Assembly (NCBI RefSeq): GCF_002895485.1
Contig: NZ_AZRK01000044.1
Span: 1-64,000, forward strand
From: Petrotoga sp. 9PWA.NaAc.5.4
GTDB taxonomy: Bacteria > Thermotogota > Thermotogae > Petrotogales > Petrotogaceae
DNA length: 64,000 nt
Direction: 5' to 3'
The notes under the pieces were generated by a model. That model made no database searches. It was not told the DNA's origin and saw nothing but the letters and a program-made list of their open reading frames with translations. This document shows positions 6,986 through 13,300 of the stretch, one piece after another; positions within the stretch are counted from its first letter, which is position 1, and each line of letters opens with the position of its first letter. Made by a program: the position numbers and the translations under genes.

Positions 6986-7017
6986 AATATCCCGCTTATC
7001 GCGGGATATTTTATTCT
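6979..7017. terminator. Bidirectional terminator between convergent genes
   Basis: A 17-bp perfect stem (6979-6995 pairing with 7001-7017, core ATATCCCGC/GCGGGATAT, loop TTATC) has A-rich and T-rich flanks, so it can stop transcription from both sides. The stop codons of both neighbouring genes lie inside the stem. Confidence 0.9.
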
Positions 7018-8119
7018 AATATGGAAAAACTATTTCAGGAACTTCGAAAGAACCTATTTTTGAAGGATCAGTAGGAATTACCAGTTTTCCTTCTTTTATA
7101 AGTTTTGTCAAATATTCAATTTCAACAAAAAAACGTGTTGGAACCATGCTTCTTGTATATTTCATAGGACTAATGCTAACTCCACCTTCTTTTAAACCCA
7201 AACTATAAACTCCTGAATTAAAAGTTCTCACTGACATAGCATTTTGAATTCCCTCAAATGCAGCAGTATCAACTCTCTTCATCGCACTTGTTAATACGTA
7301 TCCTGGTGCCATATAATCTTGATCAACATCCACACCTATTGCAAAATGACCTCTTTCCAATTCGTAATATTTATCAATTACGTCTTTCAAAGGAGCATTT
7401 ATAGGTAAGTTATACAATGATGCACCTCTTTCTTGAGCAGCACTGATAACTCCGTTACCGGTCGGACCTGCAGCATGGAAAACAATATCTGCTCCCCTTT
7501 CCATTTGTGTCAAAGTCATACTTTTCCCTAAAGCAGGATCGTTGAATGTATTAGCATATCCTGAAATAACTTCAACGTTTGTATTATGTAATACGTTGTA
7601 AACTTTAACACCTGCCCTATAACCTGCTTCATATTTAGTTACTGCCGGGACAGCAACTCCTCCAATAAAACCAACTTTACCGGTTTTTGTCATCATAGCA
7701 GCTAAATAGCCAGCAGGGAAACTCGATTCATGTTCCTTAAATACATAGCTTATAACGTTTGGAGGAACTATTTGACCAGGAGATGGTTCTATATCTATTC
7801 CTACAAAGTAGACATCTGGAAATTGAGGGGCAACATTAAATAAAACATCTGTCATCATAAACCCTACAGCAATTACAACATTAGAATTTTTTGCAGCATT
7901 AGACAAATTTGGTAAATAATCAGTTTGTTCGCGTGATTGAATGACATCAATTTCTACCCCTAATTCATCTTTTGCCCTTAAAACTCCTTGCCATGTACCA
8001 TCGTTGAAAGATTTGTCACCTAAACCACCCACATCAGTAACCATAGTTACTTTAAAAGGAAAAACAAAGGATACTAAAAAAATAGCAAATATAAGCACTA
8101 ACAAAGTCTTTTTCATCAC
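7016..8119 (-). CDS. BMP-family substrate-binding protein
   Basis: This 367-residue protein belongs to the BMP/PnrA family of solute-binding proteins, which capture nucleosides or related ligands for an ABC importer. It has a clear signal peptide (residues 1-22, KKTLLVLIFAIFLVSF core) with no lipobox cysteine, so it should be a free or non-lipidated exported protein. The family start VTMVTDVGGLGDKSFND is visible after the signal. SD GGAGG lies upstream; the start may be GTG at 8119 or ATG at 8116. No ATPase or permease genes are adjacent, so it is an orphan here and must work with a transporter elsewhere. The shared terminator stem overlaps its stop. Confidence 0.88.
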   Translation of the reverse strand: MMKKTLLVLIFAIFLVSFVFPFKVTMVTDVGGLGDKSFNDGTWQGVLRAKDELGVEIDVIQSREQTDYLPNLSNAAKNSNVVIAVGFMMTDVLFNVAPQFPDVYFVGIDIEPSPGQIVPPNVISYVFKEHESSFPAGYLAAMMTKTGKVGFIGGVAVPAVTKYEAGYRAGVKVYNVLHNTNVEVISGYANTFNDPALGKSMTLTQMERGADIVFHAAGPTGNGVISAAQERGASLYNLPINAPLKDVIDKYYELERGHFAIGVDVDQDYMAPGYVLTSAMKRVDTAAFEGIQNAMSVRTFNSGVYSLGLKEGGVSISPMKYTRSMVPTRFFVEIEYLTKLIKEGKLVIPTDPSKIGSFEVPEIVFPY

Positions 8120-8205: not shown

Positions 8206-9636
8206 CTATCTAATAAACATCAAAGAGATTAACAGAAATAATATTTGATAAATGAAGCTGTTTTTAAAATTATAGATTTCTACATCTTTTATGGTGACTC
8301 TATCTTTGAATGTTATAAAAGTCAAAACTCCTAAAGAAAAAAGCAAATACTGAAATAAAATCTTTAAAACCGGTATGACATAATTAAAGTTAAAAAAGTA
8401 ATATACAATTAGGTAAATATTTAAAATCATAAAAATCAAAATATACCAGTATTTTAAAGAAAATTTATTCTTATCGATAGTAAAGATGCTTATAATTTTA
8501 TAAAAATACATACCACATATAAAAATATTGATATCAATGAATATTGATAAATTTGAACTATCTTTTATAAAAAATAAACTAAAAGGGAACAGACCGCTTA
8601 AATTCAACAAGAAAAAGGTGAAAATTATAAAAAATAAAAGATCTATCGACTTTCCCTTTAATTTATGTATATCTTTAGTTCCGGTTTCTTCATATACGTC
8701 TTCTATAATCATGAACAGGAACCCTTTACTAAACATGTGAAAAATTATAAAATGTGGAAAAAGATTCGGATTCGATAAAATTACGAGTAATGCATAGCTC
8801 ATTTGAGTCATAGTTGAATAGGCCAAAAATCTTTTTAAATCGTTTTGCATTAATGTAAAAATAGAAGAACATACCGAAGAAATAATTGCAAATCCAAATA
8901 AAAAGTTCTTCATCTCTATAGTTAAAGATGGTATAAGAAGATATAAAATAAATAACGAAAGCTTAACAATCATTCCGGAAAGAATTGGAGAAATACCTTT
9001 AACTGCTTGTGTGTGAGCATCAGGTAACCAGCCCGATAGAAAAAATAAACCGCTCTTAATTAAAATGCCTGTAGCTATAAAGCTGAAGGCAACAGGATTT
9101 AGTCCATTATTTACATTAAGATATATATTTAAAGTTCCCGAATAAGAATATAATATTCCTACTCCAATCAAATAGAAATTTAAAGCAACTATACTCATTA
9201 TCATATATTTTAAAGAAGACCACACTTTTGTTTCTTTTTTATCGTAAGATAATAGCAAGAATACTGATATTGACGCAAGTTCTAAGTGAACATATAGATT
9301 AAAGAAGTCTCTACTTGAGAAAAAGCCGTTTATACTTCCTATTAAAAGCAGCCATAGTGAGAAGAAAACATTATCATATATCTTTCTTATTCTAAAAAAA
9401 GAAATAAGCGAAAATATTGAAAAAGAAATAACTAATGTTTTACTAATTATGTCAAAGCTAAATTCTATACCGTTTAAAACATTATGACCACCAATCACCA
9501 TAGTTTGTACAGGGGAAAATATAGCAAATACAAAAGTTAATATGGAAGAAATCAGAACTAAAATATTTGCCTTTTTTTTAAATAAATATGCTAAAACTCC
9601 AAAAGACATTGGTATCAAAGTCAAAAGCAAAAACAT
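8206..9636 (-). CDS. mrpD: Mrp antiporter subunit D (MbhH-like)
   Basis: This 476-residue polytopic membrane protein is related to the NuoL/M/N ion-pumping subunits of complex I, which form the ion path of Mrp antiporters. About 14 hydrophobic segments are visible, with the conserved central stretch SGWLPDAHTQAVKGISPILSG containing the PDAH and KGxSP elements. Length fits MrpD or MbhH. It is the last gene of the minus-strand operon, separated from mrpC by 32 bp with its own SD. It is the only large antiporter-like subunit in the cluster. The C-terminal third is diverged. Confidence 0.85.
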   Translation of the reverse strand: MFLLLTLIPMSFGVLAYLFKKKANILVLISSILTFVFAIFSPVQTMVIGGHNVLNGIEFSFDIISKTLVISFSIFSLISFFRIRKIYDNVFFSLWLLLIGSINGFFSSRDFFNLYVHLELASISVFLLLSYDKKETKVWSSLKYMIMSIVALNFYLIGVGILYSYSGTLNIYLNVNNGLNPVAFSFIATGILIKSGLFFLSGWLPDAHTQAVKGISPILSGMIVKLSLFILYLLIPSLTIEMKNFLFGFAIISSVCSSIFTLMQNDLKRFLAYSTMTQMSYALLVILSNPNLFPHFIIFHMFSKGFLFMIIEDVYEETGTKDIHKLKGKSIDLLFFIIFTFFLLNLSGLFPFSLFFIKDSSNLSIFIDINIFICGMYFYKIISIFTIDKNKFSLKYWYILIFMILNIYLIVYYFFNFNYVIPVLKILFQYLLFSLGVLTFITFKDRVTIKDVEIYNFKNSFIYQILFLLISLMFIR

Positions 9637-9668: not shown

Positions 9669-10019
9669 TCATTCCTTTTTAAAATCATCATTTTTTATTT
9701 TACTTTCTATTTCATCAACATTATATGTTTTGAACTTTAAAAAAAGTATCATGGCAAAAACCAGCATTAAAGCAAGATTTGCAAATCCTATAACTATAAC
9801 TGTTAATAAAAAGGAATGGATCAAGGGGTCCGAATAGCTGTCAACTCCTAACACAATAATAGGGGAATGATAATCAAAGGCTAAAAGAACGAAAAACAAA
9901 ACAACTCCGCTTTGAAAAACTCCAAGATTTATAAATTTTAAAATAAGATCTTTTTTTATAATAACTCCAAATAACCCAATAAAAATTGTTATAAAAGCAG
10001 CTATTTCATAAGCATTCAT
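9669..10019 (-). CDS. mrpC: Mrp antiporter subunit C
   Basis: This 116-residue protein has three predicted membrane helices and resembles NuoK, as MrpC/MbhG does. The segment SYSDPLIHSFLLTVIVIGFA is the typical Mrp subunit C pattern (DPLxxALxLTAIVI). It is made from an ATGA overlap with the upstream mrpB-like gene, so the two are translationally coupled. It acts in the inner membrane as part of the Na+/H+ exchange complex. Confidence 0.88.
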   Translation of the reverse strand: MNAYEIAAFITIFIGLFGVIIKKDLILKFINLGVFQSGVVLFFVLLAFDYHSPIIVLGVDSYSDPLIHSFLLTVIVIGFANLALMLVFAMILFLKFKTYNVDEIESKIKNDDFKKE

Positions 10020-10705
10020 AATAAACCTCTGTGTTTTAAAAATCTATATAGTATTGTCCAAGTTCCTCCAAATACTTCAAACAATATTAAAAAGTTCAAT
10101 ATTATTGCTGAACCTCCACTCGTTAATTTTCCTGGAGTGCCTGCATTATTAAAGTTAGAGAAAAAATTATTTCCCCAAATATAACCCATAAGACCATAAA
10201 CAATTATTGCTAAAGGTACTAACATTTTTGCTTTTTCAATTTGGGAATTAAGGAATATTTCTTCTATTTCATCAGTTTGTCTTACAAAGGATACAGCTAA
10301 AAATGCAGTTCCTAAAATTGTTCCCGCGGCAAATCCTCCTCCTGGAGCAAGGTGTCCTGTTATAGCAATATATAGTGAGGTTAAAACCATTATTTGAAAT
10401 AATATAGGTGTGATTACTTTTATAATTGAAGTTTCATATGTAGTATTTTGATTATTCGTTTCTGAAATGGGTATTTTCTTCATAAACTCAGATACTCCTA
10501 TAACTGCGACTGTGAAAACTAATATTTCAAAAAGAGTATCGTATACTCTATAATCTAGAACAATCGCTGAAACCATATTGGTTGATCCATTTTCGTTCAA
10601 AATGTCTAAAGGATTATAAAAACTTTTTGCATCTCCAATCGTTAAATTCGATACTATTAGGATAAAAATGCATATAAGCAAAGAGAGAATGAAAAAATTT
10701 TTCAT
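10016..10705 (-). CDS. mrpB: Mrp antiporter subunit B with fused MbhE-like N-terminus
   Basis: This 229-residue protein joins two modules. Residues about 1-85 resemble MbhE: one N-terminal helix, a short exported loop, then NMVSAIVLDYRVYDTLFEI, the characteristic (T)NxVxAIxxDYRxxDTLxE pattern. Residues about 90-229 are the MnhB/MbhF domain with four helices and HLAPGGGFAAGTILG, the GHxxPGGGFxxG family signature. In Mrp operons the MbhE part is commonly the end of MrpA or the start of MrpB. The start overlaps the upstream gene by four bases (ATGA), and mrpC follows by the same overlap. Confidence 0.87.
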   Translation of the reverse strand: MKNFFILSLLICIFILIVSNLTIGDAKSFYNPLDILNENGSTNMVSAIVLDYRVYDTLFEILVFTVAVIGVSEFMKKIPISETNNQNTTYETSIIKVITPILFQIMVLTSLYIAITGHLAPGGGFAAGTILGTAFLAVSFVRQTDEIEEIFLNSQIEKAKMLVPLAIIVYGLMGYIWGNNFFSNFNNAGTPGKLTSGGSAIILNFLILFEVFGGTWTILYRFLKHRGLL

Positions 10706-11472
10706 CCAAAGTACCTCCGTATTAGATTTTTATAATATTTTCTATCTTTTTTTATTTCGCTAATATATTTATTAAAATCCTTTAATAGGGAACTATCTTT
10801 TTTTGAGAAAATTATTCTATATCCAGAGCGTTTAAAAATTTTTAAATCCGTAGTTTCCAATTTTTCTAAACTATTCTTTAAGGTCTGTAATCTAATTTCA
10901 TCGATAACAAAATCATTATCTAAATCATTTTGTTGAAAGGTCTCTATATCAGGAAGAAAAATTCCTACAGGAGCTTTTTTAGGTTCTCCTATTACATAAA
11001 GTTTAGAATTAATAATGGGTTTAGAAGCAAGAAATTCTTTGTTATCTTCAAAAATTATTCCTCCAACTAATATTGCCCCGTGATCTTTTAATTTTTCTAA
11101 TACAGATGCGTCATCTACTTTTATAAAATCTGCGTCTAAACCTTTCCTTTCTAAAAAATTCTTAATAATTTCATACTCAAAACCGTGCAATTTATTATCT
11201 TTTTTTTCTATCAAATATGGAGTTTCAAGATAATAAATTGTTATTTCCGCATTTTTTTTAATGGCTAAAATATATATAAATATTACAAAAGCTGCTCCTA
11301 CGGTAATCTCTACAAAAGCAACATCTGGAGCGTTTAAAAGGAAAAATAAAACCGATAAGGAAACTGAAAAAATTCCGTATCCTATAATTGCATACAAATG
11401 ATTATCTTGTATTAAAGTGTATAAAGCAAAAATTATTAAACATCCCAATAAAAAAATTATAGATAGATTCAT
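10702..11472 (-). CDS. MbhD-like membrane domain fused to a solute-binding-protein-like domain
   Basis: Residues 1-75 form three membrane helices that match the MbhD/MrpA C-terminal module, including LLNAPDVAFVEITVGAA (family pattern APDVAxTEA). Residues about 76-256 are a soluble domain beginning ITIYYLETPYLIEKKDNK followed by GFEYEIIKNFLERKG. This is the opening of the type-3 amino-acid-binding fold (pattern PYxxxdngklxGfdvdlxkai). It ends in a lysine-rich tail. Such an extra domain is not part of standard Mrp or Mbh subunits. The basic residues after helix 3 (IKKN) suggest a cytoplasmic side, odd for a binding protein. A ligand-sensing role in regulating the antiporter is an inference. Confidence 0.7.
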   Translation of the reverse strand: MNLSIIFLLGCLIIFALYTLIQDNHLYAIIGYGIFSVSLSVLFFLLNAPDVAFVEITVGAAFVIFIYILAIKKNAEITIYYLETPYLIEKKDNKLHGFEYEIIKNFLERKGLDADFIKVDDASVLEKLKDHGAILVGGIIFEDNKEFLASKPIINSKLYVIGEPKKAPVGIFLPDIETFQQNDLDNDFVIDEIRLQTLKNSLEKLETTDLKIFKRSGYRIIFSKKDSSLLKDFNKYISEIKKDRKYYKNLIRRYFG

Positions 11473-11756
11473 TAGTTCTTTTTCCCTAACTTTTCACCAG
11501 ATTTAGCCGCGCTGTAACCTATAATAGAAGATATTACAGGATTCAAAATCAGAACAAGAACAGCAATTATAGACAATCTTCCAACTATTTCAGGATATCT
11601 TAAAATCAATGCTACCATTATAGAAAATACTCCTACCGTATCCGATACCCCTACAGCTTGAATTTTTGAATAAAGATCTTCCATTGTGAACAACCCTATA
11701 GTTCCAATTATTAAAAACACTATGCCACTAACTAAAAAAATATTTGAAATAATCAT
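11472..11756 (-). CDS. mrpG: Mrp antiporter subunit G
   Basis: This 94-residue protein has three membrane helices and the MrpG/MbhC pattern: a G-rich first helix (LIIGTIGLFTMEDLYSKIQA, family G-x-R-xPDxYxRlxA) and ISSIIGYSAAKSG at the end, matching HAIxRAA-type ends. It is coupled to the mrpF gene by an ATGA overlap and to the next gene by TAATG. It is a structural membrane subunit of the Na+/H+ antiporter. Confidence 0.85.
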   Translation of the reverse strand: MIISNIFLVSGIVFLIIGTIGLFTMEDLYSKIQAVGVSDTVGVFSIMVALILRYPEIVGRLSIIAVLVLILNPVISSIIGYSAAKSGEKLGKKN

Positions 11757-12010
11757 TTTATATCACCTTTTCTCTCTAAAAAAATTGAAATAATCACTAT
11801 TCCCCATACGTTTAAAATCAAAAAAATGATTATCACGTCCAATAAAAATAATTGATCTGAAATAAAAGCAAATACTAACATTAATAAAACAGCTTTTGAA
11901 GAAAAAGAAGAATAAGCAAGAACCTTTTCCCATTTAGAAGCTGTGAACATAAATTTTATAAGTGTTATTAACATTGAAACAAGAAGAAATATTTCTAAAA
12001 TGTTTGTCAA
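11753..12010 (-). CDS. mrpF: Mrp antiporter subunit F
   Basis: This small three-helix protein has the MrpF/MbhB layout, with FLLDVIIIFLILNVWGIVIIS in the third helix, where the D-x-x-x-x-x-x-L pattern of the family falls. I place the start at TTG 12010 (TTGACAAAC) because GGGAGGA lies 10 bases upstream and the TTGA overlaps the mrpE stop. The upstream ATG at 12028 contains the SD itself and would add six residues. It is cotranscribed with the rest of the antiporter operon. Confidence 0.8.
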   Translation of the reverse strand: MTNILEIFLLVSMLITLIKFMFTASKWEKVLAYSSFSSKAVLLMLVFAFISDQLFLLDVIIIFLILNVWGIVIISIFLERKGDIK

Positions 12011-12429
12011 AAGATGTCTTCCTCCCATTCACTTTCGATCTCGTGGATTTCTTCTGAGTTTGAAGATACTTTATGAATAATTAACGTTTCATCTTCTTCA
12101 TACAAAGCAAGTGTTTTAGGCGTCAAAGTAACAGATATTGATATGGCCGCTTTTTCAAAATCTGACTTTCCTTTCATGTCAATATGAGTTATTCCTGAAT
12201 GTCTTTTATAGAAAATAAGAGGTATAAATTGAAAAGTATTTTTGTACATTTTTAAAATGCTACCAATACTATAAATTAAAAGTTGAATAGTTCCATAAAT
12301 TGTATTTTTAAAAAATAAGTTTGTTAGTTTCACTGTAATAAAAACCATTGAAATGCCTAATATTATTGATAGATCTGAAAAGTCATTTATTAAAACACTC
12401 CAAATAAAAAATAAAAATATATACGTCAT
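12007..12429 (-). CDS. mrpE: Mrp antiporter subunit E
   Basis: This 140-residue protein is the first gene of the antiporter operon. It has two or three N-terminal helices followed by a soluble tail with AAISISVTLTPKTLALYEED, the MrpE/MbhA pattern (nsITLTPGTlt). The operon order E-F-G-(A C-terminal module)-B-C-D equals the MbhA-H module of membrane-bound hydrogenases and Mrp complexes. No hydrogenase genes and no large MrpA N-terminal subunit are present in the window. A candidate promoter lies about 90 bp upstream. Confidence 0.82.
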   Translation of the reverse strand: MTYIFLFFIWSVLINDFSDLSIILGISMVFITVKLTNLFFKNTIYGTIQLLIYSIGSILKMYKNTFQFIPLIFYKRHSGITHIDMKGKSDFEKAAISISVTLTPKTLALYEEDETLIIHKVSSNSEEIHEIESEWEEDIF

Positions 12430-12631: not shown

Positions 12632-12710
12632 TGTTTCGAATTTTGTATTCTTTTTTTTGAAAAATTATGAAAAACTTCGAAGAATAAATTGCAGAGTTTT
12701 ATGATTTATA

Positions 12711-12919
12711 GAGGCTTCAAAAATGAGAATTTTCTAAAAATAAGCGTTTGAATTTATAACAGGTTCAGGGTGAAATCTCATCCTTCTTCTTTGGTATGTG
12801 TGTCTAAGAGGTTGAAGTAATAGAGGATAGCTCAAAATTAGAATTGTGAAGGTAATTTGTAAAAAGTTAAACGCTGAAATATTGATAAAATATAAATTTT
12901 ATAATTTTTAAAGCGAGTA
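12711..12919 (+). repeat. Diverged copy of the MITE-like element
   Basis: The element layout is recognisable: an AT-rich head with AGAATTTTCTAAAAATAAGCG, a central CAGGTTCAGGGTGAAATCTC block, GTTAAACGCTGAAATATT near the 3' end and the end TTTTTAAAGCGAGTA. The two hairpins are degraded, so it is probably an older copy. It points toward acpP. Confidence 0.65.
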
Positions 12920-12931
12920 AATAACTGATTA

Positions 12932-13300
12932 GGTGCTTTAGAAATAATAATTTTCAGAAAATAAGCTTTTGAATTTAAAACGGGTCCAGGGCACAGCCCT
13001 CTCCTCCTTCTTTGGTTACAAGTACCGAAAAAGGTAAAGAGATTAGGAATTAGTAAGTATTAGAACTTAGAATGACTAAAAAAGAAGTGGGAACTTTAGA
13101 AATGATAATTTTCAGAAAATAAGCTTTTGAATTTAAAACGGGTCCAGGGCACAGCCCTCTCCTCCTTCTTTGGTTACAAGTACCGAAAAAGGTAAAGAGA
13201 TTAGGAATTAGTAAGTATTAGAAGCTTGGAAGTATTTTGTAAAAAGTTAAGCGCTAAGATGCTGATAAAATATGAATTTCATAATTTTTAAAAGCAGTAT
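12932..13300 (+). repeat. Two further tandem copies of the MITE-like element
   Basis: Two near-identical 5' units begin at about 12932 and 13089, with a period of 158 bp. Only the second has the complete 3' half, ending TTTTTAAAAGCAGTA near 13300. Both carry GGGTCCAGGGCACAGCCCTC and the paired TTTGGT/ACCGAA arms, which keep pairing through a G-T wobble. They lie in the long acpP leader and point toward acpP. Confidence 0.85.

Follow-up and report, generated by a model that had tools for sequence, protein, structure and literature searches.

A nearly single-lobed solute-binding-protein domain on the MbhD subunit of a Petrotoga stand-alone group 3 Mrp

Introduction

The membrane arm of respiratory complex I has relatives in the Mrp antiporters. 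In P. furiosus, a stand-alone group 3 Mrp is encoded by mrpEFGBB'CD and lacks both the NuoL-type half of MrpA and a redox module (PMC8415708). In the sections of that report drawn on here, MrpB is described as homologous to TM17-21 of MrpA (equivalent to MbhD plus MbhE), and no solute-binding domain is mentioned. A cyanobacterial group 3 Mrp, that of Aphanothece halophytica, is given the gene order mrpCD1D2EFGAB in the relevant extract of PMC5703873. For the Mrp of B. pseudofirmus, excerpts of two reports describe Glu687 of MrpA, which lies on TMH19, as essential (PMC9568556, PMC5703873), and a cation tunnel has been proposed that leads from Glu687 and opens at the cytoplasm near MrpA Glu707 and MrpC Arg27 (PMC9568556).

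Here, we describe an operon of Petrotoga sp. 9PWA.NaAc.5.4, located in a 64,000 nt stretch of DNA that was analysed as a whole and is referred to below as the window. The operon has the gene order of the P. furiosus system and, like it, contains neither the NuoL-type half of MrpA nor a redox module. However, the MbhD subunit encoded in the window carries a solute-binding domain, and its MbhE is joined to MrpB.

Results

The fusion gene and its operon

The ORF at 10702-11472 on the minus strand, which begins with ATG and encodes 256 aa, was confirmed as a real gene with exactly these coordinates. It overlaps both adjoining genes, mrpG and that for MbhE/MnhB, with shared stretches of 1 and 4 bases, and is, therefore, part of a tightly packed operon. 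The operon runs from 12429 to 8206 of the minus strand and encodes, in this order, MrpE, MrpF, MrpG, the fusion protein, MbhE/MnhB, MrpC and MrpD, with the following features:

12007..12429, minus strand: MrpE (Pfam MNHE).
11753..12028, minus strand: MrpF (Pfam).
11472..11756, minus strand: MrpG (Pfam).
10702..11472, minus strand: fusion protein of MbhD and a one-lobe solute-binding domain, 256 aa (ORF, Pfam, profile search, AlphaFold2, Foldseek and VIA-align).
11251..11472, minus strand: MbhD part of the fusion protein, residues 1-74, equal to TMH17-19 of MrpA (Pfam MbhD, model helices, and homology to 6cfw chain D and 6u8y chain D).
11308..11310, minus strand: codon of Glu55, the equivalent of MrpA Glu687 on TMH19 of B. 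pseudofirmus (motif APDVAxxE).
10705..11250, minus strand: type-II periplasmic-binding-protein domain, residues 75-256, with a full lobe 1 and a reduced lobe 2, predicted to be cytoplasmic (Pfam, profile, model and charge).
10906..10986, minus strand: remnant of lobe 2, residues ~163-189, of low model confidence (model and alignment).
10016..10705, minus strand: MbhE (a weak match, 23.8 bits, under the cut-off of 27) fused to MnhB/MrpB (MnhB 78.9 bits, above the cut-off).
9669..10019, minus strand: MrpC (Oxidored_q2; Pfam).
8206..9636, minus strand: MrpD, the sole NuoL/M/N-type subunit of the operon, 476 aa (Pfam).

The presence of E, F, G, B-type (MbhD), B', C and D genes in one operon is the make-up of a stand-alone group 3 Mrp. 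One Proton_antipo_M protein was found among the seven operon products, so the operon contains no mrpA; no further NuoL-type frame was detected between 5500 and 17500, and the operon has no redox module. Judged by its gene content, the operon is a complete stand-alone group 3 Mrp, with putative cation/proton antiport activity. The neighbours of the fusion gene in the operon encode Mrp subunits, and neither an ABC permease nor an ATPase was present among the operon genes.

Two further observations were made around the operon. The gene after mrpD, likewise on the minus strand (7016-8119), encodes a PnrA/Bmp-type binding protein; the Pfam family of this protein is not the one to which the fusion domain belongs. 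The non-coding region between mrpE and the next gene (12709-13299) contains long direct repeats, comprising two 130 nt copies at 12936 and 13094 that are 99% alike, with one more, related copy at 12709. No Rfam match, including any to an upstream riboswitch, was obtained in the window, these repeats included.

Fold of the tail domain

Pfam MbhD (PF13244) matched residues 12-73 of the fusion protein with 56.5 bits (cut-off 27.2), and the AlphaFold2 model places three helices in this part, at residues 2-21, 25-45 and 49-74. An earlier note on this DNA, made from the sequence alone, had described an MbhD-like three-helix membrane subunit continuing into an amino-acid-binding-type fold, and is confirmed on both points. 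SBP_bac_3 matched residues 85-256 with 40.9 bits (cut-off 26.4), covering positions 11-131 of the 132-position profile. A profile of 15 Thermotogota relatives matched solved amino-acid-binding proteins (6h30, E 1.1e-15; 4zv1, E 6.2e-12; the T. maritima arginine-binding protein 6svf, E 6.7e-10); the alignments omit approximately 50-60 target residues where the second lobe sits.

AlphaFold2, run on a 20-row alignment in which just six rows span most of the tail, returned a model of the window protein with a mean pLDDT of 84.6 and a pTM of 0.75, the weakest part being residues 161-190 (pLDDT 61-65); single-sequence prediction gave a poor model (pLDDT 49). The top Foldseek match of the model was again 6svf (E 2.2e-10), and VIA-align superposed the model on the glutamine-binding protein 9p4d (Z 18.4, 181 aligned, rmsd 3.2) and on the isolated domain A of LAO, 6xks (Z 17.1, 130 residues, rmsd 2.1). 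The Pfam score above cut-off, the profile matches, the structure prediction and both structural comparisons agree on a binding-protein fold after the MbhD module, and not on an unrelated one.

One point in the first reading of the sequence, which had seen the start and core of the fold in about 180 residues, needs correction: the tail is not a whole two-lobed domain. The window protein has 25 residues between its hinge strands, compared with 59 in a canonical binding protein encoded by the same genome (locus L159), and hence does not contain two full lobes. We conclude that the tail is a natural, nearly single-lobed family-3 binding-protein domain, in which lobe 1 is complete and lobe 2 is reduced.

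Distribution of the fusion

A survey of Thermotogota MbhD proteins identified the fusion in 69 of 103 genomes and in all 11 family codes, as a single frame in 68 genomes and split in two in the remaining one. The split fusion belongs to the Marinitoga lauensis assembly (L042, 5989-6728), where two overlapping frames are present, perhaps as a result of a sequencing error. The fusion was not found in the other 34 of the 103 genomes (some of these assemblies are incomplete) and is, therefore, not required for Thermotogota life. The 69 genomes rule out a fusion unique to one genome. An assembly or gene-calling artefact is likewise ruled out, as 67 distinct Thermotogota proteins have an open frame here and purifying selection acts on it.

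Among the matches listed for 287 genomes of other phyla, only those of genomes G157, G301 and G210 extend beyond the MbhD part. Matches were obtained for 45 of the 117 genomes in the phylum of G157; 43 of these have MbhD as a frame of its own, 177-275 aa long, and the other two an MrpA-sized frame. PsaA/PsaB were present in all eight of the tested genomes of this phylum, which we therefore identify as cyanobacteria. In a third phylum, that of G210, the match extends well into the tail in 54 of 100 genomes.

The extension is not universal amongst MbhD proteins. At 19 of 22 non-Thermotogota loci the MbhD frame is 43-95 aa in length, measured from the start nearest the match, which rules out a tail common to all MbhD; the other three are L047 (179 aa, with an unlike tail) and L050 and L061, which are parts of larger Mrp proteins. 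The Petrotoga genome itself provides an internal control, as the MbhD of its second Mrp operon has 81 aa and no tail. This second Mrp module (L104, 8901-19552 on contig C13), with its plain 81-aa MbhD, is accompanied by what we take to be redox parts: complex-I-like membrane, hydrogenase-like and iron-sulfur subunits, and an NADPH-oxidoreductase-like protein. The statement that standard Mrp and Mbh operons have no such domain consequently holds for MBH-type operons and for most other MbhD seen, but not for one entire clade of stand-alone group 3 Mrp operons, cyanobacterial members included, in which the domain is the rule.

Origin of the fusion and loss of lobe 2

MrpD was chosen for phylogenetic analysis, the trait itself lying outside this protein. 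The tree contained 45 rows, from 45 of 68 loci; loci without MrpD beside MrpC, L105 (whose assembly is the same as that of L042) and MrpD proteins of <380 or >640 aa were dropped beforehand. The 25 fusion operons fall on one side of a single branch, with support of 100/98 and recovery in all of 200 bootstrap trees, showing one origin of the fusion operons on the MrpD tree. With the tree drawn from its midpoint root, the third phylum branches first within the fusion clade and the cyanobacteria are nested in Thermotogota beside family code f11. This nesting of the cyanobacterial group 3 Mrp suggests transfer between phyla.

The number of residues between the hinge strands, 59 in the canonical L159, is 27-47 in 16 third-phylum proteins. 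Amongst 67 Thermotogota proteins it is 17-29 in 21 (families f1, which is that of the window, f5 and f7) and 1-3 in the other 46. Lobe 2 was, thus, lost stepwise over the clade.

Cyanobacterial tails are 106-126 aa in length and correspond to the beginning of the Thermotogota tails in an hhalign comparison (93.8%, E 1.7e-7, ~66 columns). The single cyanobacterial protein scanned had no Pfam SBP match and corresponds to NCBIfam PRK07377, a 'hypothetical protein'. The Thermotogota protein of L113 matches PRK07377.1-6 with an E value of 2.2e-28 over residues 13-146, whilst the window protein scores 26.8 bits against PRK07377.1-4, for which the cut-off is 151, and is accordingly homologous to the family but not a member. 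A different tail, of ~105 aa, follows MbhD at L047 (5992-6531, in a Bacillota record) and L116 (3421-3966, in a Thermotogota genome). The MrpD proteins of these two loci are sister to the fusion clade (97/88), and their tails may represent an eroded version of the fusion domain.

Membrane side of the tail

Family-3 binding proteins usually act outside the cell membrane. In the fusion proteins, the mean number of Lys and Arg residues after helix 3 is 3.33 in the 67 Thermotogota, 3.06 in the 16 third-phylum and 2.06 in 16 cyanobacterial proteins, against values near zero throughout for the loop between helices 2 and 3 (0.04 in Thermotogota and 0 in the third phylum). The loop between helices 1 and 2 is basic too, but weakly so in cyanobacteria (0.25). 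Because the segment after helix 3 is basic and the loop between helices 2 and 3 nearly devoid of Lys and Arg, the positive-inside rule probably places the tail domain on the cytoplasmic side, as the basic residues after helix 3 had hinted from the start. The same charge pattern makes a periplasmic sensor unlikely.

Binding site, conservation and selection

Binding-site columns were referenced to one canonical binding protein, L159, and we assumed the ligand roles of the examined columns to be those known from LAO, with the titles of LAO mutants as an aid. The arginine column, which we take to be the residue holding the ligand carboxylate of the amino acid, contains Arg in one of 67 Thermotogota proteins and none of 16 third-phylum proteins (1/83 in all), and the lobe-2 Asp column contains Lys or Arg in 39 of 67 Thermotogota proteins. 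The canonical amino-acid site is lost.

Other positions have been kept or newly fixed over the 83 proteins. Amongst columns filled in at least 70% of the proteins, these are G97 (76 proteins), E99 (70; Asp in L159), E101 (63), G137 (71 of 74 without a gap), Thr at S156 (65), D191 (73) and Y218 (67). The conserved polar positions E99, E101 and Thr at 156 could form a ligand site.

At the column equivalent to Glu687, 20 of the 67 Thermotogota fusion proteins have Gln and one has Ser (Kosmotogaceae-type and Marinitoga-type proteins), and four of the 16 third-phylum proteins have Gln. Loci to which this observation applies include L011-L015, L018-L025, L101, L187, L189 and L191.

The dN/dS of the tail, calculated for 18 hand-picked close pairs, was 0.04-0.26 in 17 of them, the 18th being saturated; the tail is, therefore, not freely decaying and is under purifying selection. 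The net charge of the window tail is +2, compared with -9 for the canonical lobe 1 of L159. As the tail is not specially acidic, the idea of an acidic surface that gathers cations is unsupported.

Discussion

The motif APDVAxxE identifies Glu55 of the window protein as the equivalent of Glu687, and the lobe starts 20 residues further on, which is the spacing between Glu687 and Glu707. This correspondence led us to propose a cytosolic cap with a role in assembly or cation access. In this reading, the third MbhD helix leads, at its probably cytoplasmic end, into lobe 1 of a family-3 amino-acid-binding protein. Judging from published Mrp structures and the distance along the sequence, the domain would be positioned by the tunnel mouth near Glu707, between the chains that match TMH19 and TMH20. 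The lobe would no longer close on an amino acid, and may instead hold neighbouring subunits together as a cytosolic cap, tuning cation access or coupling. Such a cap would provide an antiporter that has no MrpA half with its own module for assembly or regulation. We give a probability of about one in two to this reading, in which the MbhD subunit of a group 3 Mrp has co-opted a one-lobe domain as a cytosolic assembly or regulatory cap; the function is its least certain part.

The suggestion in the earlier note of an antiporter gated by a small molecule has lost its main support, given that the closing lobe is reduced or lost and that the carboxylate Arg occurs in 1/67 and 0/16 proteins. The main rival to the cap, which we hold to be doubtful but worth weighing, is that the single lobe binds a small cytosolic molecule or ion non-canonically and signals to the antiporter. 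In its favour, the engineered one-lobe D1 of the T. maritima arginine-binding protein is reported, in the extract considered, to bind arginine at ~3 uM (PMC7589609), and the fusion profile matched the one-lobe constructs 7a99, 6gpc and 6y16. The conservation of E99, E101, Thr at S156, G137 and D191 across 83 proteins and the purifying selection on the tail are also consistent with a ligand gate. However, besides the near-complete absence of the carboxylate-binding Arg (1/83), the lid formed by lobe 2 has shrunk to 1-3 residues, counted from one hinge strand to the other, in 46 of the 67 Thermotogota proteins, and the cyanobacterial tails align over ~66 columns only, with no Pfam SBP match in the single protein scanned. 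Moreover, the separate lobes of the T. maritima ribose-binding protein are described in the available part of PMC10601554 as not binding ribose.

It is rather unlikely, in our estimation, that a natural one-lobe half Venus flytrap located in the cytoplasm is the control module of a complex-I-type antiporter clade spanning three phyla. Such a module would sense a cytosolic ion or metabolite via a new site in the region of E99, E101 and T156, would open or close the path taken by cations where TMH19 ends, and would replace the missing MrpA half.

The progressive shortening across the clade and the absence of the fusion from 34 of 103 Thermotogota genomes could be taken to mean that the lobe is an inert leftover of an accidental fusion, present only as a bulk structural part. 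We consider this improbable, as the dN/dS values of 0.04-0.26, the conserved core positions and the retention of the domain in three phyla after one origin all speak against it. More improbable still is a docking platform recruiting a soluble partner that gives the drive or control supplied by MrpA in other Mrp complexes: redox genes are absent from the operon, which encodes a single NuoL-type subunit, and PMC8415708 describes what drives the stand-alone Mrp of P. furiosus as unknown, but there is no candidate partner gene in the operon.

Whatever the function of the proposed cap, a defined soluble module of one origin now appears in a stand-alone Mrp without MrpA, a system whose drive is, in the account cited above, described as unknown (PMC8415708). 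The cyanobacterial 'hypothetical protein' PRK07377 is placed in the fusion lineage. The clade also offers a natural case of a binding-protein lobe that stands almost alone, a state made by dissection in the work excerpted from PMC7589609 and PMC10601554. No published description of a fusion of MbhD to a solute-binding domain was found in the open-licence literature searched.

The MbhD subunits of P. furiosus MBH (6cfw) and MBS (6u8y) share the three-helix part (E 1.2e-6 and 2.2e-7 in a single-sequence search); unlike the window protein, these chains, of 96 and 94 aa, have no tail. The cyanobacterial group 3 Mrp belongs to the same MrpD clade as the window operon and has an MbhD with a homologous tail that is shorter than that of the window protein. 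The lobe-1 fold is shared with the T. maritima arginine-binding protein and its engineered D1 (6gpc, 7a99), in which the removal of lobe 2 by design resembles its loss in the fusion clade. In contrast to engineered D1, the window domain is natural, probably cytoplasmic, tied to an antiporter subunit and without the ligand Arg. The operon encodes a group 3 Mrp in which one subunit carries a naturally occurring, nearly single-lobed binding-protein domain.
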